Shown here in pieces: positions 2,703-43,381 of a stretch of DNA of 43,381 nt. Origin of the DNA: a virus. Location of the stretch: positions 1 through 43,381 of the IMG/VR virus record IMGVR_UViG_3300005471_000009; one strand, written 5' to 3'. The translations under genes and the position numbers were made by a program. Each line of letters opens with the position of its first letter. Positions within the stretch are counted from its first letter, which is position 1. Under the pieces are notes generated by a model that saw nothing but the letters and a program-made list of their open reading frames with translations, was not told the origin of the DNA and did no database searches.

Positions 2703-3458
2703 TTGAAAGCACTAGATGTTTCCTTTAGCAGCATTAGTCAGTCCTGGTTTGAGGCTAGAAAGGCTGAGGGCTACGAGCTGTTTATACAGGACGCTTGGAC
2801 TGGCAGTCTTACCCCAGCTAGTGCGCTGCCTAATATAGCTAATGCTAGAGCTGCTGGATTACTAATAGCAGTATACAGTGTGGTATCCTATGCTCACCCA
2901 GGTAAGTTTGCTGCTGATGTAGTTCATGCTGTTAGTCCTTACTGGTCTGAGTACAACTTCGTAGCTGTTGATGTAGAGGAGATAGAAGGGCTGCCAGACC
3001 CAACAGCAGACCAGATTCAGGAGTGTATTGACCGCATTAGAGAACTGGGCCAGAGGCCGATACTCTATAGTAGGCGTAACTTTATCTCCCAGTATCCAGA
3101 CTTTGGGATACCAACTTGGATGGCTAAGTATGATGGAGTAGCTGAATTAGAGCCTGGTGATATAGGCAAGCAGTTCTCAGGTACTACACTAATAGGTGGA
3201 GTAGAAGTAGATCTAAGCGTGTTCGATGATACCTTCGTGAGAGGAGAGGATATGAGCCAGGATGATATTAATGCCATCAAGCAGGTGCTCTCACAGTTCG
3301 CTGATACTGACAACGCCATCAAAGAAGTGCTGGCGCAGCATAATGCTAGGCTAGCTGCCCTTGAATCTCACCCATCAGACGCAGCGGAGGCGGATAAGCT
3401 TATAGCTGATATTGAAGCTCGGATAGAAAAAGCTGGCAAAGATCTAGCCGGTGACTGA
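2703..3458 (+). CDS. Endolysin, GH25-like glycoside hydrolase (muramidase)
   Basis: This 251-aa protein starts at TTG 2703 after GAGGGAG. Residues 3-180 follow the GH25 lysozyme barrel: an N-terminal ALDVSFSS strand, YNFVAVDVEE around 79-88 with the acidic D-x-E pair, RPILYSRRNF near 118-127, PTWMAKYDG near 138-146, and the closing QFSG...VEVDLSVFDDTF. GH25 enzymes cleave the MurNAc-GlcNAc bond of peptidoglycan. Residues 185-251 form a charged coiled-coil tail that may oligomerise or bind the wall. There is no signal peptide, consistent with holin-dependent release. Confidence 0.75.
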   Translation: MKALDVSFSSISQSWFEARKAEGYELFIQDAWTGSLTPASALPNIANARAAGLLIAVYSVVSYAHPGKFAADVVHAVSPYWSEYNFVAVDVEEIEGLPDPTADQIQECIDRIRELGQRPILYSRRNFISQYPDFGIPTWMAKYDGVAELEPGDIGKQFSGTTLIGGVEVDLSVFDDTFVRGEDMSQDDINAIKQVLSQFADTDNAIKEVLAQHNARLAALESHPSDAAEADKLIADIEARIEKAGKDLAGD

Positions 3459-3696
3459 CTGTCCTAGGCCTAAGTGTCACGGGCAGGTCTACTCTGAGCC
3501 TTGGGAGCAGAATCTTTGGACTTGTTTCCAGTGTGCTCGACACTTTATGCGGCTTGATGGGGAGCTGATTGAGATCAGCCGAGTGGCAACAGAACAGGAG
3601 TCTGAGAAGTCTCGGGCGGTAGGATCTAAGTTTTGGCGTGATCCTCCAACTAAAGGAAATAGAAATAATATGAAGGACAGGCGGCGGTTGAAGTGA
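3451..3696 (+). CDS. Small zinc-ribbon protein at the end of the late operon
   Basis: GTG 3451 overlaps the endolysin stop by 8 nt. The 81-aa product has a four-Cys ribbon (CPRPKC at residues 4-9, then CFQC near 25-28) followed by a charged, Arg/Lys-rich tail. The fold is a likely zinc ribbon. Function is unknown. It is the last rightward gene and ends 17 nt before the stop of the converging polymerase gene. Confidence 0.6.
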   Translation: MTDCPRPKCHGQVYSEPWEQNLWTCFQCARHFMRLDGELIEISRVATEQESEKSRAVGSKFWRDPPTKGNRNNMKDRRRLK

Positions 3697-3705
3697 ACAG
3701 TGCCA

Positions 3706-3724
3706 CCCCTCCCTACCCCTCCCC
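3706..3724 (-). terminator. G-quadruplex motif at the convergent gene junction, possible terminator
   Basis: Read on the minus strand this is GGGGAGGGGTAGGGAGGGG: four G runs with loops of 1, 2 and 1 nt. It straddles the TAG stop of the polymerase gene and lies in the short gap where the two arms of the genome meet. I find no hairpin with a T-tract within about 60 bp. In the leftward message the motif sits exactly at the 3' end, so an RNA quadruplex could stop polymerase or protect the end. That function is inference. Confidence 0.5.
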
Positions 3725-5566
3725 TAGTGATGTTTGTTGCAAGACTTGCTTGCCCCAGGTTGGCCCGTACTTTACTTTGAACGGTGTGTACAGTGGCCCT
3801 ATATGAGCTAGTACCTCTGGAAAGGCTATCATACCATCTGCTAAGATTTCGTCATGAACCTGTAGCGCCTGATCTTGGTCTATTAGGCTAGGGTGTAACA
3901 TAGCTCGCTTAACAATATCTGCGCCAGTGGACTGTATAGGATAGTTGATAGCGCACTTCTCAATATGATCTGGTGTAGCTGTCTCCAGTGTTGGCAGTCT
4001 GCACTTCCGGCCCAACATGTTCTCTACCCAGCCCTGTTCCCAGCCAAGTGCTGCTTGCTCTAACTGGTAGTCGTTAACTCCAGGGTAAGTCTCTAGCCAG
4101 CGCTCTCTGTACTCAGCACAGGTACTTATTGGTAACTTAGTGTGTCTAGATAGCGTAAATGGATTAGCTCGATACTGCATAGCGAAGTTGAAGGTCTTGG
4201 ATCTAAGTCTGCTGTCTTCGTCTCTTTTACTAGTCCCTGGCCAGAGTGCTTGCTGTGTTAGCCAATGTATATCCTCTCCTTTAGCGTAGGCAGCTAGTAA
4301 GGTAGCATCCTGGCTGATCTCTGCCATGATCCTCATCTCTAGTTGGTCATAGTCCATCCAGCTCCAGATACTATTATCAGCCTCATATATGTCTCGGGCA
4401 GCATCGGGAATGTTCTGTAGGTTATCATCAGAGCTACTAAGTCTGGATGTCGATAAGTCTTGACGAAAGTGAGTGTAAGCCCTAGTACGGTTAAGATACT
4501 TCCTAAAGTAGGTTCCTATTAGTTTAGTCAGCTTGCGGTGTTCTAGTATAACAGTAGCTAATGGATCTGTTAGCATACTTAGGACTTCATCATCAGTCTT
4601 AAGCTGCTTCTTACTCTTAGTAAACGGAAGGAAGTTACCTCGGGCAGCTAGTACATAGCCAACCTGCTGAGGACTACTAGGATTGAAGCCTTCTTTAGTG
4701 CATATATCTTGGAAGACCAGTCTGCGCTGGCTAAGGTCAGTGTACCATTCTCTCACTCTGTTAGGTCGGAGCCTAAGTCCCCTTGCACTCATACGAAGCA
4801 ACAGCGGTATTAGTCTTCTGTCAACCTCATAGCAATCCTGCTGTCTAGTGTTGACTGAATAGTAGTCTGGCTCAGTCGGATCAAAGCCAAGACCAGAGTA
4901 GTTATGTTCATAGTGCCATGTTACAGTACTCCCCCTATTCCACCCAGGCCCCTTCATCTGGTGCCAGAGTCTCATAGTACCTATTGTATCATTCAAGCAC
5001 TTCTTAGCTGTTACCTCCCAAGGCAAGCTTAGCATGTTCTTACCTTTAGGAAGTATATCAGAGATAGCATCTAGCTCTGTCTGTGCATAGGAATGACACA
5101 TATCCTTTAGGTTAAGGTCTGGTAATGCCTGTACCTGAGACATCAAGCTAGTATCTTGGGATTTATGGGCTATGTCAAGAAGTGCTTGAGGAACCCTATA
5201 CTTACCGCTACAATCCAGTACGCTATGGCTAGCCCAAGGGCCAGATATATGAAAGTCTTGTGAGGCATCAATGCACCAATCTAATAACACTGAGAGATCA
5301 AAGATCCCATTATGCCAGATAACTGTTTCAGCACGTTCTAGTAGGCTAAGTACTAGTAGTATGTTGTTAGGATTAGGATCTGGATAGACTCTAACGTATA
5401 CTGATTCTTGGCAGTTAAGGCCTACTCCAATGCCTAGTAGGAATCTATCCTTGATTGAGACTGTCTCAACATCACATGACACAACAGGATGAAGCTGTAA
5501 GAGATATTCTATTAGTTGTTGTGGAGTATAGTTCTCTGGCCCTAGATAGGCGAGGCTACCTTCCAT
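3713..5566 (-). CDS. Family A DNA polymerase with 3'-5' exonuclease domain
   Basis: This 617-aa replicative polymerase has exonuclease motif I (DVE, residues 32-34), motif II WHNGIFD (84-90) and a probable motif III near Y236-D244. The polymerase part has TSRLSSSDDNLQNIP (373-387), motif A DYDQLEMR (405-412), motif B RSKTFNFAMQYRA (455-467) and motif C VHDE (570-573), so the catalytic aspartates D405 and D572 are present. It is compact for a phage Pol I. Motif B ends in YR instead of the common YG. No 5' nuclease domain is present. It is the last gene of the leftward operon and overlaps its upstream neighbour by 11 nt. Confidence 0.95.
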   Translation of the reverse strand: MEGSLAYLGPENYTPQQLIEYLLQLHPVVSCDVETVSIKDRFLLGIGVGLNCQESVYVRVYPDPNPNNILLVLSLLERAETVIWHNGIFDLSVLLDWCIDASQDFHISGPWASHSVLDCSGKYRVPQALLDIAHKSQDTSLMSQVQALPDLNLKDMCHSYAQTELDAISDILPKGKNMLSLPWEVTAKKCLNDTIGTMRLWHQMKGPGWNRGSTVTWHYEHNYSGLGFDPTEPDYYSVNTRQQDCYEVDRRLIPLLLRMSARGLRLRPNRVREWYTDLSQRRLVFQDICTKEGFNPSSPQQVGYVLAARGNFLPFTKSKKQLKTDDEVLSMLTDPLATVILEHRKLTKLIGTYFRKYLNRTRAYTHFRQDLSTSRLSSSDDNLQNIPDAARDIYEADNSIWSWMDYDQLEMRIMAEISQDATLLAAYAKGEDIHWLTQQALWPGTSKRDEDSRLRSKTFNFAMQYRANPFTLSRHTKLPISTCAEYRERWLETYPGVNDYQLEQAALGWEQGWVENMLGRKCRLPTLETATPDHIEKCAINYPIQSTGADIVKRAMLHPSLIDQDQALQVHDEILADGMIAFPEVLAHIGPLYTPFKVKYGPTWGKQVLQQTSLGEG

Positions 5567-9876: not shown

Positions 9877-10050
9877 TTACTTCACCTCCTCTACTTCAAC
9901 GGTAATCTCCTTGGGTGCCTTGTTCTCAAACACCCATTTACTGATGTATAGAGTACTGATTGGAGACTCTACGTTCCCGTCTTGTACTCCAGCATTGTAT
10001 CTGTAGCTATGCTTCTTCTCGCTATCGAATACCATATTAACTTTTACCAT
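9877..10050 (-). CDS. 57-aa beta-rich phage protein
   Basis: ATG 10050 follows a GGAGGTG site. The product begins MVKVNMVFDSEKKHSYRY and ends in alternating hydrophobic and acidic residues (EITVEVEEVK), the pattern of a small beta-sheet protein seen in many phage replication regions: an initial KV strand, a Y/F-rich middle, STLYISKWVF, then a KEITVEVE strand. It fills the interval between its neighbours almost exactly. Confidence 0.6.
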   Translation of the reverse strand: MVKVNMVFDSEKKHSYRYNAGVQDGNVESPISTLYISKWVFENKAPKEITVEVEEVK

Positions 10051-10053
10051 TGT

Positions 10054-10236
10054 TCACCTCCTAAGTTTACGTCTGCCAACATGATAAGATCCGCAGAATT
10101 TACACCTATATGGATGAACTGATATTACCACTCCTTTCTGAGCCAAGCTCCGGGCTGCTGATCTAGCTGAGTCGAGGTCAACGTACTGAATCTTTCCGTA
10201 ACATTGTACTTTCTTTGCTCTCCTCTTTGAAGCCAC
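10054..10236 (-). CDS. Small basic zinc-ribbon protein
   Basis: This 60-aa product starts at GTG 10236, five bases after AGGAG. It has a Lys/Arg-rich N-terminus, a helix (SARSAARSLAQKG) and a ribbon ending HPYRCKFCGSYHVGRRKLRR, with C12, C46, C49 and H53 as possible ligands. The Y-R-C-x-x-C-x-x-x-H-x-G ending is common in phage zinc-ribbon peptides. It overlaps the upstream gene by 59 nt in another frame. Confidence 0.6.
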   Translation of the reverse strand: MASKRRAKKVQCYGKIQYVDLDSARSAARSLAQKGVVISVHPYRCKFCGSYHVGRRKLRR

Positions 10237-10342
10237 TTATGCTCCTAAACAACTTATTGGCACACTTATCATGTAGTATCCAGCCAAAGAAGTGCAATGC
10301 TTCTTGGCTAGGCTTGATTAGATTACCACAGGCACTACACAT
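10178..10342 (-). CDS. 54-aa zinc-finger-like protein
   Basis: I chose ATG 10342, which overlaps the upstream stop by 8 nt, rather than a start at 10384. The product begins MCSACGNLIKPSQEALHFFG and has CSAC (2-5) plus H-D-x-C (about 25-28), fitting one metal site, and a Ser/Lys-rich tail. The tail overlaps the next gene by 59 nt, so the exact end of functional sequence is uncertain. Confidence 0.5.
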   Translation of the reverse strand: MCSACGNLIKPSQEALHFFGWILHDKCANKLFRSISGFKEESKESTMLRKDSVR

Positions 10343-10607
10343 TGTTACTAGCCTTAAGTCTGAGGACTTGCCTGTATCTTTCAATAAGAGCCTGTGCCTT
10401 GGTTATCTGCCGCTCTAATTCTTCAGGATCACGGTACAATAAAGCCATACTGCGACGACCTATACTTCTTTGCCATTCACGATAAGCTGATACCATCTTC
10501 TCCGTACTATCAGCTTCACTGCTGTGTCCATTGCTCCTAGCCCATTCTAAACACTCAGGTGATATTACTATATTCGGTTTGCGGTCAGGGTTGCTTAGTT
10601 TAGTCAT
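10335..10607 (-). CDS. Hypothetical helical protein
   Basis: The 90-aa product contains an N-terminal segment similar in style to short DNA-associated phage proteins (NIVISPECLEWARSNG) and a C-terminal coiled coil (PEELERQITKAQALIERYRQVL). There is no Cys cluster and no membrane segment. Its start shares one base with the stop of the Cas4-like nuclease gene, so translation is coupled. Function not recognised. Confidence 0.6.
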   Translation of the reverse strand: MTKLSNPDRKPNIVISPECLEWARSNGHSSEADSTEKMVSAYREWQRSIGRRSMALLYRDPEELERQITKAQALIERYRQVLRLKASNNV

Positions 10608-11278
10608 TACTCACGTTCCTTTCTGAGTCTTTCAATAGACTCCTTAGCCTGACATATCAGCAAGTACTCACAGTTATCGCACATCCAAGGCTCATTGTAT
10701 GTGAATTGCTTAGGAACTTCTCCTCTGGCTACATGGTCTAGATAGATAGTCTTTCTTTCCTGTAGCCAAGCCCAGTTATCTTCTATTTCCTGTGGACTAG
10801 CTATGCCATGCCATACCTTCAGTGCTGGAAATGGTGGGTTATAGCTTCCTAACGCATGAAACACTGCGAGTGTAGCTTCATTCCTGTCAAGACATTTAAG
10901 GTAGCCAAGTAACTGCTTAGTCCAAGTCTCAGGGAAATCCTCAGGCTCCTTCTTAGCCGACACTCTGGTTGACTTAAGCTCGCCTACTGTATCCCTATAT
11001 GTTAGAAAATCAGCCTCATAATATATTCCGTCTACCTCACCGGACTTATGTTCCTTGTGTGGCCTTAGCAGCGCTTCTTCTAGTCCGATTCCCATAACAA
11101 AGATTAGTGCAGTCTGTGGGTTTATGGGAAGTGGGTCATAGCGGGCATAATAGCTGCGAGTTAAGCACCCTATGAGCTCAGTGAGATGCGGGAGAGGCTT
11201 TGGGCCTTTACTGTCCAGACTGGCAACAAAGTCCTCTAGCATTACTTTAGTCATATGCTCATCTAAGACCCACTTCAC
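10607..11278 (-). CDS. Cas4-like PD-(D/E)XK exonuclease with Fe-S cysteines
   Basis: This 223-aa protein has the Cas4/RecB-type layout: a first Cys in the N-terminal region (IGCLTRS, C38), the nuclease core GEVDGIYYEADFLTYRDTVGELKST (80-104; likely D83 or D90, E100, K102), a QLLGYL helix, and a C-terminal triple CDNCEYLLIC (C200, C203, C209). The four Cys would hold an Fe-S cluster. Such enzymes resect DNA ends. It probably acts with the Sak4-like ATPase. The GTG start follows an AGGAG. No CRISPR array is present, so an adaptation role is not implied. Confidence 0.8.
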   Translation of the reverse strand: MKWVLDEHMTKVMLEDFVASLDSKGPKPLPHLTELIGCLTRSYYARYDPLPINPQTALIFVMGIGLEEALLRPHKEHKSGEVDGIYYEADFLTYRDTVGELKSTRVSAKKEPEDFPETWTKQLLGYLKCLDRNEATLAVFHALGSYNPPFPALKVWHGIASPQEIEDNWAWLQERKTIYLDHVARGEVPKQFTYNEPWMCDNCEYLLICQAKESIERLRKERE

Positions 11279-11283
11279 GTCAG

Positions 11284-11394
11284 TTACTCCTGGTCTTCCT
11301 CTTCAGTTGTATCATCTTCGGTATCGGTGCTTTCGTCAGTGTTCTCGTCCTGATCTTCTTCACCGTTACCTTCTGGCAGGTCTTTGGGATCCAT
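11284..11394 (-). CDS. 36-aa highly acidic peptide
   Basis: ATG 11394 is preceded by a perfect AAGGAGG. The peptide begins MDPKDLPEGNGEEDQDENTD and almost half of its residues are Asp or Glu. It may mimic nucleic acid or act as a flexible regulator of a neighbouring DNA-binding protein, but only composition supports this. It closes the space between the Cas4-like gene and the next gene upstream. Confidence 0.5.
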   Translation of the reverse strand: MDPKDLPEGNGEEDQDENTDESTDTEDDTTEEEDQE

Positions 11395-11417
11395 GGTTTC
11401 CTCCTTTCTACGTGGGA

Positions 11418-12107
11418 TCATGCTTTGTGTAATAGCCCCTCTGAGTCTCTCGTGAGCTGCTTAGCCATCAACATAGTACTAAGCATCTCACGATTGGTAA
11501 TAGCAGTAACAATCTCTGTTCGGCTAGTAACTCTCTGGTCTTGTAGTGCAGCCTGATAAAATTGGCTTTCAGTTTTACCATCTGCTAGACCAGCAAGATA
11601 CTCGAACATATCATCGCTAGCGCCTGTAGCTCCGTTGATACTAACTACTTGCCAGGCCTGTCCTTCTCCGTTCTCCCAGATCTGCCTACCATTGGCTCCC
11701 ATAATAGGCTGCCCGTCCTCATCCACCTTTGGCATACGGATAGTAGCTGGGCCGAAGTGCAGCTCCTGTTCCTGTCCTACTAGCCTATCCAGGCGATCTT
11801 CCGGTGCTACCTCTGGTAATAGGTTACGCAATGACTTAGCAAATGCATCCCATCTGGTGTTACCAAAACTAGTACTGGGTGGCTGGTAGTTGATACTGAT
11901 AGATGCAGTTGGGAAGGGATAAGGCTCTGTGGCCTCCAGTACTTCCAGATCTCTATACTTGAGATCACAATAGACGGACTTCCGGCTGGTACCATCAGGA
12001 TTATCTCTCTGTGCTTCTCTCCTCTCGTATGAGTCTAGTGTCCCCTTGAAGCGGATCAGTGGTGACTGGCCCTGAGGGGGTGCAGTGCTAAACTTTTCTT
12101 GTACCAA
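11418..12107 (-). CDS. Conserved-looking replication-region protein, possible ssDNA-binding protein
   Basis: The 229-aa product starts at TTG 12107 after AAGGAGG with an 8-nt spacer. It is mixed alpha/beta: residues 15-120 have several strands (RFKGTLDSYERREA, SVYCDLKYRDLEVLEA, ASISINYQP), and an acidic helical C-terminus follows. Its place ahead of Cas4-like and Sak4-like genes, with its own upstream control region, suggests an OB-fold single-strand binding protein. I do not recognise a signature, so this is a guess. Ends near KQLTRDSEGLLHKA. Confidence 0.6.
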   Translation of the reverse strand: MVQEKFSTAPPQGQSPLIRFKGTLDSYERREAQRDNPDGTSRKSVYCDLKYRDLEVLEATEPYPFPTASISINYQPPSTSFGNTRWDAFAKSLRNLLPEVAPEDRLDRLVGQEQELHFGPATIRMPKVDEDGQPIMGANGRQIWENGEGQAWQVVSINGATGASDDMFEYLAGLADGKTESQFYQAALQDQRVTSRTEIVTAITNREMLSTMLMAKQLTRDSEGLLHKA

Positions 12108-17870: not shown

Positions 17871-18509
17871 TTACTGGTTCAGGTAGTGAAAGCTACCTAC
17901 GTTCGCTTCGAGCCACCGAGTAGCACTCGCTGTATTGGCAGGAGCAGGCTCCTGTCCATCCTTCTCGGCTCGCTTCTCCATGTAGGCGCGGTTCACTGAC
18001 TTGAACTCTTCGCCTGTCGAGTCAAGCTGGATAGCGCCTCGGCTCTGGAAGCCTCCGCCTCCATTGCTGGAGCGTGGAGCCCTTGGAGTACTGGTTCTGA
18101 TCCCAGGGCCACTTGGCTTGGCACTGACTGTTTCCTCTGTCATATCGATTGTCAGTACCAGCTTCTCCACTCCGACTGCCCTGTATGCAGCGAAATCCGT
18201 TGCTCCTCTGGCCTCCTCAACATCTCTGGCGATCAGAGAGTTACGCTCGTCCTTCTTGGCTTCCACCTCGAAGTTAGCCACTCGTTCCGTAGCGCGCTTG
18301 TGAAGCTTGGCTGCTTGCTCGGCTTCAGTCTTGGCCTTGTCAACCGCTCTGCCCAATTCGAGTAGCTGCTCGGGAGCAACTAGCCCGACACTGGACTCGA
18401 ACTGCTTCATAGCCGTAACGTGTGCCTTCTCCGCAGCCTTCACCTTGTTAGCGTGCTCGTGAGCTTCGGCTTCCAGCTCGGCCTTGGTGGGTTCTGTGTC
18501 TTGTACCAT
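17871..18509 (-). CDS. Monocistronic coiled-coil protein under a strong promoter, unknown function
   Basis: ATG 18509 (MVQDTEPTKAELEAEA) lies ten bases after AAGGA and is preferred to GTG 18518. The roughly 212-aa product has an Ala/Glu/Lys-rich coiled coil (residues 5-100), a compact middle, a Pro/Gly/Ser/Arg linker (RTSTPRAPRSSNGGGG) and a small C-terminal domain (GEEFKSVNRAYMEKR, then a TRWLEANVG helix). It has its own near-consensus promoter and terminator, so it is probably abundant early protein. A DNA-organising or regulatory role is possible given the adjacent repeat array. No family recognised. Confidence 0.7.
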   Translation of the reverse strand: MVQDTEPTKAELEAEAHEHANKVKAAEKAHVTAMKQFESSVGLVAPEQLLELGRAVDKAKTEAEQAAKLHKRATERVANFEVEAKKDERNSLIARDVEEARGATDFAAYRAVGVEKLVLTIDMTEETVSAKPSGPGIRTSTPRAPRSSNGGGGFQSRGAIQLDSTGEEFKSVNRAYMEKRAEKDGQEPAPANTASATRWLEANVGSFHYLNQ

Positions 18510-18572
18510 CTCGTTCACATCCTTTCTGTAACTCTGTCGGTTGGTAGGCGGCCCATCTCGGCTACCACATGG

Positions 18573-18601
18573 AGCATACCATTACCCGATATGCATGTCA
18601 A
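18573..18601 (-). promoter_or_regulatory. Leftward promoter of the coiled-coil gene
   Basis: Minus strand TTGACA (18596-18601), a 17-bp spacer ending in TGG, and TATGCT (18573-18578) make a consensus -35 and extended -10. The start is predicted near 18566, giving a leader of about 57 nt. Confidence 0.75.
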
Positions 18602-18654
18602 GGGGATATTGGGGATAATGACAGCACAATATCTTCCTCGAACATTAGTTCCTA

Positions 18655-18683
18655 TTGACAGGTGTTATAATGCATGGTATATG
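18655..18683 (+). promoter_or_regulatory. Rightward promoter firing into the repeat array
   Basis: TTGACA (18655-18660), a 17-bp spacer ending in TGG, and TATATG (18678-18683) have the same plan as the two leftward promoters. The predicted start, about 18690, coincides with the first element of the repeat array and lies 4 nt before an ATG. Confidence 0.65.
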
Positions 18684-18691
18684 GGACGGTG

Positions 18692-18860
18692 TTATGTCAA
18701 GCTATAACATACAGGCTGAGCTGTTACGTCAACTGGGGCAACGAGTTATTACTATTATGGCAAGCCCAAGTTTGTTATTATCAGCATTACGTCAAGTCTA
18801 CTTGCTTATTATCTGTATTATGTAGCATATAGTTCACTCATTATACACATTATGGTAAGC
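18692..18860 (+). repeat. Six helically phased degenerate repeats (iteron-like array)
   Basis: Six 11-bp elements of consensus TTAYGKCAAGC start at 18692, 18724, 18755, 18787, 18818 (degenerate) and 18850. Spacings are 32, 31, 32, 31 and 32 bp, averaging 31.6, three helical turns. Elements 1-3-5 and 2-4-6 are each exactly 63 bp apart. The spacers also repeat a TTATTA word. The array lies between divergent promoters and the terminase genes, so candidates are a packaging (pac) site, a replication origin or an operator cluster. All elements would face one side of the helix. Confidence 0.75.
18694..18825 (+). CDS. Possible leaderless 43-aa hydrophobic peptide inside the repeat array
   Basis: ATG 18694 lies about 4 nt after the predicted start of the rightward promoter and opens a 43-codon frame. 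The product starts MSSYNIQAELLRQLGQRVIT and ends with a hydrophobic SLLLSALRQVYLLIICIM. Because the array has a 63-bp super-period, the peptide itself shows two 21-residue repeats, each beginning M-S/A-S and containing LRQ. It may be real or a by-product of the DNA repeat. Confidence 0.3.
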   Translation: MSSYNIQAELLRQLGQRVITIMASPSLLLSALRQVYLLIICIM

Positions 18861-18988
18861 ATAGCGGTCAGACCCCGTCTTTGCCTCGATGTTCCTAGAG
18901 CGCATTTACTGTCTACGAGATTTTCTCAATCTAAAATCCTTGTTCTATACAATGCAGTCAACTAACTAGTAGCAACTAAATAAGGGTA
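18861..18988. other. Gap between repeat array and late promoter
   Basis: AT-rich sequence with no gene that I can support. A short AGAC-CCC-GTCT hairpin lies at 18870-18880. It would be part of a roughly 360-nt untranslated leader if transcripts from 18690 run to the terminase gene. Confidence 0.4.
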
Positions 18989-19018
18989 TTGACACAACAA
19001 TTTCAGTTGTGTTATTAT
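18989..19018 (+). promoter_or_regulatory. Late promoter and palindromic operator before the terminase genes
   Basis: TTGACA (18989-18994) and TATTAT (19013-19018) with an 18-bp spacer. Embedded is a palindrome TGACACAA-N9-TTGTGTTA spanning the spacer. The block ATAAGGGTATTGACACAA is repeated exactly at 29044-29061. The predicted start is near 19025, leaving a 28-nt leader with a good ribosome-binding site. Confidence 0.8.
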
Positions 19019-19052
19019 CTAACCCAAGAGAATCCGGAGGAAAAGGAGCCTA

Positions 19053-19646
19053 ATGCTAGCCCGAGAGAATCCACACTACATAGGCCCAAAGGCTACCCAA
19101 GAGGAGCTAGATGCGCCTAACGGCTACCAGATTAGGAAGCAGGAGTACTTAGATCTCCGCTGTAACGGCTTTACTGAACGAGAAGCCTCCTTACTATCTG
19201 GCTTCACTGCCAATAGTATTAGACGAGAGCGTGCTAACGACTCCAGTTTTGAAGCCATTGAGAAATCTATAGCCAGTGTTCCTGAACGGCAAACTTACCT
19301 AATGAGGATTAAGTACACAGCCGCTATTGCCCACGCTCTCAAGGAGAAGGAGTTGGCTGTTAGGGCACTAGACCCAGAGACAGACGGATTGGACGGACTT
19401 AGTGAGCGCGAGTTTAGTTACCATATGGAGACTCGCAAGTCGCTTCCTAGGGGACAGTTAGAAGTTGAGTCTGGCGGATCTGGCGGTAGCCTAAATCTAA
19501 CTATCAACCTTGGCGAGAACGAGATCAAGTCTGTAGAAGCCAGACGTGCCGTAGCTCAACAGCTACTAAGTGACTTTGACGCTAGCTCTAAGTACCGCAA
19601 CTCTGACTTACCACTCATAGGAGGTGAGATAGTTGAGGACAGTTAA
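19053..19646 (+). CDS. Small terminase subunit (probable)
   Basis: The 197-aa product has an N-terminal region (residues 25-60, RKQEYLDLRCNGFTEREASLLSGF then TANSIRRER) that reads as a helix-turn-helix, a helical middle for oligomerisation, and a beta/acidic C-terminus. It directly precedes the large terminase, the usual place for the DNA-recognising TerS. ATG 19053 follows AAAAGGAGCC. The repeat array 190 bp upstream is a natural candidate for its binding site (inference). Confidence 0.7.
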   Translation: MLARENPHYIGPKATQEELDAPNGYQIRKQEYLDLRCNGFTEREASLLSGFTANSIRRERANDSSFEAIEKSIASVPERQTYLMRIKYTAAIAHALKEKELAVRALDPETDGLDGLSEREFSYHMETRKSLPRGQLEVESGGSGGSLNLTINLGENEIKSVEARRAVAQQLLSDFDASSKYRNSDLPLIGGEIVEDS

Positions 19647-19803
19647 AAAGCTAGAAGAGCTAGGTATCCAGCCTAATGGTAACAACTGGGTACTAGTAGG
19701 TAACGTAGTTTGCCTCAACTGTGGCTACGCGTGGTTAGCTGCTAGACCTGCCTTTGTCTTCCTCCTGTACTGTCCTGAGTGTGGGCTACAGAGAGCTAAC
19801 TAG
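19633..19803 (+). CDS. 56-aa zinc-ribbon protein between terminase subunits
   Basis: TTG 19633 lies eight bases after AGGAGG. The product begins MRTVKKLEELGIQPNGNNW and carries CLNCGYAW (28-35) and CPECG (47-51): a clean zinc ribbon. It overlaps the small terminase end by 14 nt and the large terminase start by 1 nt (TAGTG), so it is translated with them. A packaging cofactor is possible. Confidence 0.6.
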   Translation: MRTVKKLEELGIQPNGNNWVLVGNVVCLNCGYAWLAARPAFVFLLYCPECGLQRAN

Positions 19804-21236
19804 TGGCAGCTCCAGTTCTAACTAGACCAACAAGTGAGTTTGAGTCCCGAGTAGTAGCTGCCCGCTATGGTGATCTCCGCTCCTATGCTAAAGCTGTCCA
19901 TAACATTGAGATAGAGGAATATCAAGAGGCTTGGGAAGAAGCCCTCAATACTCTCAACTATACCGTAATAGTCTGTCCCCCAGACACTTACAAGACCACA
20001 ACAGTACGTATGTGGGTAGAGCAGCAGATAGGCCTCAATCCTAACATACGTATCCTTTGGCTTCAGTCTGCTGGTGAGCAGTCTAAGAAGAACGTTATGG
20101 CTATCCAGCGCACTATCAAGTCTAACAACGTCTACCGAGCAGCCTTTGGTGTTGAGGAGGATACTGACGCTCAGTGGACTAAGGATGCTATCTTTGTCAA
20201 GCGCAACTATACTGGCCCAGAACCAACTCTAATGGGCTGTGGTCTAAATGGCCCTTATCAAGGTTTGCACTTTGACGTAATAGTACCTGACGATGTAACT
20301 AACCAGTGGGACGTACGTAGCCCAACTGAGATGGAAGCCCAGCGCTCTACACTCCGTGGTGTAGTGGTAGACCGCCTAGTAGAAGGCGGACGTATAGTAG
20401 CACTACTCACTAGATGGGGAGAGAACGATCTAGTCCCTACTTATGCAGAGATGGGATTTACTATTATTGAGATGCCTGTTATTGGCGAATACCCTTGGGG
20501 AGAAACTCTTAGCCCTAAGCGCTTTACACCAGAGAAACTAGAGTCTATCCGCAGACAGAAGGGTGATAGTCTCTTTGCTCTTACCTTCCTGTGTAGCACT
20601 GGTGCTATGGAAGGCAACATTATTAAGCGTGACCATATACAGTATTGGGATGCCAGCACAATTCCTAACCGTCCACTGAACATCTATATGGCAGTAGACC
20701 CAGCCGCTAGTACTAGAACCAGTGCTGACTATGCTGCAATAGCCTCAGTTGGTACTGATCTCCGCTCCCGCAAGATATTCTGCTTAGATGTCTGGGCTAA
20801 GCGCTTAGAAGTCCCTGACCTGGAATTTGAGATACAGAGACGTGGTAAGCGCACTAACGGACTTCGTGCAATAGGACTGGAGACAATTGGATTCCAACTT
20901 AGCCTAATGCAGTCTATGAAGCGCAAGTACAAGCTACCGTTTGTTGAGATACCTTACCGCTCTCGCCGTGGAGTACAGAGCCACACTATAGCCCTAGATC
21001 GTGACAAAGCTAGCCGAGCAGCCTACTTAGACGCTCTATTTGCTAGTGGCAGACTTCTTCTTCCCAGAAACCTACCGCTTGTTGACGGAGTTAGCCTTGA
21101 GACTGAACTGTGCTTAGCCCCCTATGGCAGACACGATGATAGAATGGACGCCCTAGCAATGGCATGCGTCTTGGCAGACGGGGCTAGAGTTCCTATGATA
21201 CGTAAGCCTAGATACATATTCAACAGGAGTTACTAA
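19803..21236 (+). CDS. terL: Terminase large subunit (packaging ATPase/nuclease)
   Basis: This 477-aa motor protein has a deviant Walker A CPPDTYKTTT (58-67, K64), Walker B HFDVIVPDDV (156-165), a coupling motif LLTRW (201-205) and a C-terminal RNase H-like nuclease: AVDPAAS (297-303), an acidic middle strand, and HDDRMDALAMA near the end. It cuts concatemeric DNA and pumps it into the prohead through the portal. GTG 19803 overlaps the previous stop by one base. Confidence 0.9.
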   Translation: MAAPVLTRPTSEFESRVVAARYGDLRSYAKAVHNIEIEEYQEAWEEALNTLNYTVIVCPPDTYKTTTVRMWVEQQIGLNPNIRILWLQSAGEQSKKNVMAIQRTIKSNNVYRAAFGVEEDTDAQWTKDAIFVKRNYTGPEPTLMGCGLNGPYQGLHFDVIVPDDVTNQWDVRSPTEMEAQRSTLRGVVVDRLVEGGRIVALLTRWGENDLVPTYAEMGFTIIEMPVIGEYPWGETLSPKRFTPEKLESIRRQKGDSLFALTFLCSTGAMEGNIIKRDHIQYWDASTIPNRPLNIYMAVDPAASTRTSADYAAIASVGTDLRSRKIFCLDVWAKRLEVPDLEFEIQRRGKRTNGLRAIGLETIGFQLSLMQSMKRKYKLPFVEIPYRSRRGVQSHTIALDRDKASRAAYLDALFASGRLLLPRNLPLVDGVSLETELCLAPYGRHDDRMDALAMACVLADGARVPMIRKPRYIFNRSY

Positions 21237-43332: not shown

Positions 43333-43381
43333 ATGGCGACAATCAAGAGTGGCGCCACCACCGACACGCTAACTATTGACC
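43333..43381 (+). CDS. Fibre-associated structural protein, N-terminal part (continues at 1)
   Basis: ATG 43333 follows TAGGAGGATGAA, where the fibre stop and the ribosome-binding site overlap. The first residues are MATIKSGATTDTLTID, continuing without frame change at position 1 of the window to the stop at 629. The combined product is about 215 aa. See the entry at 1-629. Confidence 0.8.
   Translation, partial: MATIKSGATTDTLTID
43352..43381. repeat. Terminal direct repeat, right copy
   Basis: Identical to bases 1-30. Removing one copy joins the split gene in frame and gives a 43,351-bp circle. Confidence 0.9.

Follow-up and report, generated by a model that had tools for sequence, protein, structure and literature searches.

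The window analyzed here is the whole 43,381-nucleotide stretch of IMG/VR record IMGVR_UViG_3300005471_000009, in which a control region separates a left block of early minus-strand genes (encoding PolA, a methylase, an ERCC4-type nuclease, and AAA proteins) from a right block of terS, terL, portal, and structural genes. For comparison, we assembled five IMG/VR loci retrieved with TerL as the query, together with five further records retrieved with a TerL profile; the TerL proteins of L008, the closest by this protein, and of L001 are 80% and 75% identical to that of the window. Named phages gave no DNA match to the window and a TerL identity to deposited phages of at best about 26%, and searches of bacterial genomes with TerL and portal queries returned no relative.

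The left border of the control region is an open reading frame for a coiled-coil early protein on the minus strand (positions 17871 to 18518); this frame had been annotated initially as ending at 18509, but it reaches 18518 and encodes 215 amino acids counted from a GTG. Homologues in L001, L005, and L008 are 37 to 61% identical, and the predicted structure consists of two long helices and a small C-terminal domain (pLDDT of 81), for which a fold search recovered generic coiled-coil matches only. The gene is inverted in L005 (positions 3696 to 4340) relative to the window, L001, and L008. On the right lie terS (19053 to 19646, plus strand), whose 197-residue product has a predicted N-terminal helix-turn-helix (HTH), and terL (19803 to 21236, plus strand), which is assigned by its matches to phrog_38 (E value of 1.7e-65) and PF17289. 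An alignment of eight TerS members shows a variable N terminus and a conserved C terminus, and five of the eight, the window's own sequence not among them, match the terminase small subunit family phrog_4044 (best E value of 1.1e-4). The modeled helices at TerS residues 25 to 74 have pLDDT values of 74 to 88, but the whole-chain model is poor, and the fold search with it therefore gave no significant match; the TerS of L005 has no evident HTH. Searches of PDB sequences with the TerL, TerS, and 215-residue protein profiles yielded nothing relevant.

Two putative promoters point outward from the control region. The early one (TTGACA-17-TATGCT, 18573 to 18601, minus strand) was found in a consensus scan with 10 of 12 matching positions, and the late one (TTGACA-18-TATTAT, 18989 to 19018, plus strand) precedes terS with 11 of 12. 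A palindrome, CGAACATTAGTTCC, occupies positions 18639 to 18652 and resembles the Gram-positive LexA/DinR SOS box, with a chance expectation of 0.42 occurrences in the window. Its counterpart in L008, GAACATATGTTC, lies at about 3575 to 3595 and is embedded in conserved sequence (TATCTTCCTCGAACAT..GTTCC) located 5′ of the early promoter. From the likeness to the LexA/DinR box, the early genes may be damage regulated.

A phased repeat array beside a conserved core

Between these promoters, the initial annotation had reported six iteron-like elements spaced alternately by 32 and 31 bp, and both the letters and the positions of these elements are correct: they begin at 18692, 18724, 18755, 18787, 18818, and 18850 on the plus strand, at intervals of 32, 31, 32, 31, and 32 bp, which gives a 63-bp super-period. 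The reported 11-mers do not form a tight motif: TTAYGKCAAGY with two mismatches allowed is no more common in the genome than expected; the conserved part of the unit is TTAYG. The first two elements, TTATGTCAAGC (18692 to 18702) and TTACGTCAACT (18724 to 18734), contain this pentamer singly, whereas the inner four units are bipartite, of the form TTAY-N5-TTAYG, with a second TTAY placed 9 bp 5′ of the first at 18746, 18778, 18809, and 18841. With their upstream half-sites, these units are TTATTACTATTATGGCAAGC (18746 to 18765), TTATCAGCATTACGTCAAGT (18778 to 18797), TTATCTGTATTATGTAGCAT (18809 to 18828), and TTATACACATTATGGTAAGC (18841 to 18860). The bipartite pattern has 6 matches on both strands of the whole window, against 0.86 expected.

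The regularity of the array exceeds what shuffled sequences produce. Counting TTAYG at a 31/32-bp spacing, the longest chain has six members in the window, whereas dinucleotide shuffling of the whole window 300 times never gave more than two. An unbiased search, in which every pentamer containing no more than one R/Y position was tried at every spacing from 12 to 70, ranked TTAYG at 31/32 bp as the single longest chain in the window, the runner-up elsewhere having four members; chains of any pentamer in 200 shuffles of the 534-bp control region usually reached three members and once four, the maximum. Autocorrelation, which had been proposed as a check, yields peaks at lags of 63 (z = 4.2) and 32 (z = 3.2), though these are no more than suggestive, with P of only 0.04 to 0.07 once the choice of lag is corrected for, and this raw periodicity test by itself would have undersold the array. 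A tandem-repeat finder was silent on the array because the copies are too diverged, and no Rfam RNA element matched positions 18400 to 19200 at E values up to 1. A CRISPR-like reading of the 63-bp period was rejected, as the repeated part spans just 5 to 14 bp.

Adjoining the array on its right is a conserved core that the initial annotation did not mention, GGTCAGACCCC-N43-ATTTT (18866 to 18924, plus strand), whose 59 bp align without gaps in four phage species. Across the window, L001, L005, and L008, the core has 22 invariant columns, compared with no more than 11 in 1,000 shuffles, and its internal spacing is 54 in all four; in IMG/VR, the exact core pattern matches contigs of this clade only. 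Its start, GGTCAGACCCC (18866 to 18876), is invariant in the window, L001, and L005 and reads TCAGACCCC in L008. Inside it lies GGTC-A-GACC (GGTCAGACC), a perfect 9-bp palindrome around a central A, the first two bases of which are changed in L008. The distance from the core to the late terS promoter is about 120 bp in the window, 140 bp in L008, 250 bp in L001, and 320 bp in L005; since this distance varies while the core itself is rigid, we regard the core as an independent cis element and not as part of a promoter.

Relative to the first G of GGTCAGACCCC (18866), the six TTAYG pentamers of the window start at −174, −142, −111, −79, −48, and −16, and within up to 420 bp around the core there are no further TTAYG on the plus strand and no CRTAA.

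Gain, loss, and register of the array among relatives

Alignment with related phages, also suggested at the outset, places the TTAYG of L001 at −143, −111, −80, −48, and −16, that is, in register with elements 2 to 6 of the window to within 1 bp. Bipartite sites occur at −89, −57, and −25 in L001 and at −120, −88, −57, and −25 in the window; L001 has two more TTAYG off or beyond the ladder, at −121 and +47. In a gapped alignment of the two, 24 of 25 TTAYG columns are identical but only 49 of 101 others (Fisher P = 6e-6), a contrast that strengthens to P = 3e-7 with the upstream half-sites added. The view that the interval is a phased nucleoprotein site is thus well supported, the ladder recurring in register in a second phage. 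By the same contrast, it is very improbable that the array is a functionless, decayed tandem duplication of a 31- to 32-bp unit: the spacers are weakly alike from unit to unit (e.g., ACAGTTGACTGATTAC... in L001), as tandem duplication leaves them, but neutral decay predicts no such difference between spacers and half-sites that are conserved far above them and in register with the core.

The other two core-bearing relatives depart from this arrangement. In L005, CRTAA, which is TTAYG read on the opposite strand, occurs four times at a 13-bp pitch that is not a whole number of helical turns, the last copy starting 5 bp before the core; CRTAA is the best chain of L005 in the same unbiased pentamer search. 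Despite the inversion of its left-hand gene, both the core and these TTAYG-type repeats remain beside terS. The control region of L008 has no array, though it has the core and an HTH-type TerS, from which it follows that the array is not essential for the function of the core.

Further repeats were observed ahead of terS. L005 carries five AGAAACMCTTACTRC-type repeats (one of them AAAACCCTTACTGC) between the core and terS (positions 4753 to 4955), 24 to 69 bp apart, of which L008 and L001 contain single counterparts. In L017, another TerL relative, five YACTA at an exact 10-bp pitch lie immediately 5′ of the terS promoter (about 4105 to 4155), a chain length reached in 0 of 60 shuffles. L014 and L015, likewise related by TerL, share a near-identical noncoding block of about 60 bp before terS (about 3020 to 3080 and 2683 to 2743, respectively), which includes three GTCTA at intervals of 20 to 22 bp.

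Packaging, replication, or regulation

Of the three functions offered initially (a terminase pac site, a replication origin, or a cooperative operator), the pac type fits best, an origin is possible, and an operator fits poorly. We assign a probability of roughly one-half to the interval being the left arm of a packaging-initiation site (pac or cosB-like) that is read by the terminase of a circularly mapping tailed phage of about 43 kb. The array (18692 to 18860) and core (18866 to 18924) lie directly upstream of terS (19053) and terL (19803), and a packaging site best accommodates a rigid core and a phased ladder that precede terS, are independent of the promoters, and are kept despite the inversion in L005. 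On this reading, a DNA-binding protein present in multiple copies, probably TerS oligomers acting through their HTH, would occupy a single face of the helix and bend or wrap some 170 bp. TerL would thereby be placed to introduce the first cut within or close to the two-fold symmetric GGTCAGACC, the core start being the candidate cut zone; headful packaging would then run on from that cut. That TerS binds the phased sites, that the DNA is wrapped, and that cutting follows are our inference. The repeats or blocks that L017 and the pair L014 and L015 have right before terS are also in keeping with packaging.

Some observations run against this reading. L005 keeps a TTAYG-type array in the opposite orientation though its TerS has no evident HTH, and L008, the relative with the closest TerL, combines an HTH-type TerS and the core with no array. 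In vitro, DNA binding by the TerS proteins of pac phages is generally weak and not sequence specific (PMC9611059). As to the binding protein, the initial annotation had named TerS, the coiled-coil protein, and a RepA-like helicase. The helicase is disfavored because G001 and G005, in whose control regions the motif is present, lack a homologue of it, and the coiled-coil protein because it is as well conserved in the array-less L008 (58 to 61%) as in L001 (56 to 58%). TerS is the best candidate of the three, L005 being a problem for it. The identity of its HTH to that of the window, read by eye from the alignment, is about 33% in L001 and 25% in L008, values too similar for any covariation with the array to be demonstrable.

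The closest packaging parallel is that of SPP1. Like the pac region of SPP1 and SF6 (pacL-pacC-pacR, with boxes A, B, and C), the site belongs to a genome of about 44 kb in those phages and a comparable size here, and it stands at the start of the terS-terL operon (PMC4737164, PMC6316719). In SPP1, sets of direct repeats surround the start of terS as well as the first cut, and the box A repeats are missing from the close relative SF6 (PMC4737164); likewise, the repeats described here lie beside a candidate cut and come and go among relatives that retain the candidate cut region. Unlike in SPP1, whose pac overlaps the late promoters and the terS start, the present site has a strict three-turn ladder outside terS and a fixed 59-bp core. 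The site also resembles lambda cos (cosN-I2-cosB), in which the repeated TerS sites R1 to R3 lie at rigid spacing beside a two-fold symmetric cleavage site (PMC4856287): in the window and L001, the ladder stands at fixed offsets from the palindromic GGTCAGACC, with binder and cut both putative here. It differs from lambda cos in having its main array distal to terS and also in the form of the genome.

Positions 1 to 30 of the window are identical to 43352 to 43381, and these ends close the record to a 43,351-bp circle, although it is classed as linear. End sequences are likewise shared in G005 (126 bp) and G010 (108 bp), one tail-region gene of G005 is divided between its two ends, and near-complete records end in different genes; shared ends together with different end genes indicate that the genome maps as circular. 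Contigs of the clade never end at the core; those that are near complete run through it and close elsewhere. In contrast to lambda, these records appear circularly permuted, and fixed, unique cohesive ends were not found, which in metagenomic assemblies is evidence short of proof. Circular closure favors permuted headful DNA, but a cos phage, or a replicating phage sampled inside cells, should give circular assemblies too. In phage P1, clusters of Dam-methylation hexamer repeats flank the pac cut. In P1, too, a very short motif is thus repeated around the packaging cut, as may be the case here, but the P1 hexamers are not known to be phased at three turns.

A more specific form of the packaging reading, which we hold to be speculative, is that a TerS ring sits on bipartite TTAY-N5-TTAYG sites every three turns and winds them into a nucleosome-like spool, by which the cut at GGTCAGACC is fixed, and that relatives have swapped ladders (one-turn YACTA in L017, inverted 13-bp CRTAA in L005, and none in L008) around separately kept cores. 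How a headful TerS recognizes its own DNA is disputed, as is the nucleosome-like wrapping model (PMC9611059, PMC4737164); a three-turn ladder locked to a core before terS would be an unusually tractable substrate for this question. If wrapping occurs, half-turn insertions should break it and full-turn insertions should not.

The main rival, which we consider possible and less probable than packaging, is a replication origin in which the phased TTAYG are iterons for a phage-encoded initiator and the adjacent, AT-richer DNA is an unwinding element. The array does consist of regularly spaced direct repeats, although at a pitch of 31.5 bp instead of the 20 to 22 bp or so usual for plasmid iterons. 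Direct repeats placed in a row next to AT-rich DNA, within an intergenic control region, recall SPP1 oriL and oriR (direct repeats plus an AT-rich unwinding element) as well as plasmid and lambda iteron origins (PMC6316719). The array DNA is 63% AT and lies between the divergent early (replication) and late blocks, and the conservation of a promoter-independent core would suit an origin as well. Set against these points, and unlike the SPP1 and iteron origins, no initiator gene was recognized in the genome (the RepA-like helicase is missing from motif carriers G001 and G005), and an AT-rich element is not conserved among relatives, with no obvious AT-rich stretch at the array position in L005 (53% AT) or L008 (41% AT). 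Conserved early proteins (e.g., the 229-residue protein encoded at 11418 to 12107) may include the cognate initiator. Cumulative GC skew has a low of −1.40 at 18 to 19 kb (with a near-equal −1.42 at 23 to 24 kb) and a high near 3.7 kb, but the low proves little because the coding strand switches at the same point. Were the site an origin, the replication start would be placed for a phage lineage of which no member has been characterized. An origin of the DnaA-box type was considered separately and rejected: the single TTATACACA (18841) coincides in part with an array element and has no conserved counterpart in the L001 array.

We find it improbable that the interval is a cooperative operator or stoperator array that controls the early/late switch through binding of either a phage repressor or the 215-residue protein. 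Its location between divergent putative promoters and the nearby LexA/DinR-like palindrome would suit such a role, but the array overlaps neither promoter, its distance being about 90 bp to the early −35 box and more than 120 bp to the late one. An operator is made unlikely by this lack of overlap, by a distance to the late promoter that differs among relatives, so that no close promoter flank is kept, and by L005, where the divergent gene is inverted and the TTAYG-type repeats are retained. Moreover, L008 has an equally similar 215-residue protein and no array.

The PolA homologues of G009 (about 9914 to 11689) and G010 (3701 to 5506) each show one in-frame stop (TAG and TAA, respectively) in the matched stretch, which may be genuine or just the gene's own stop codon.
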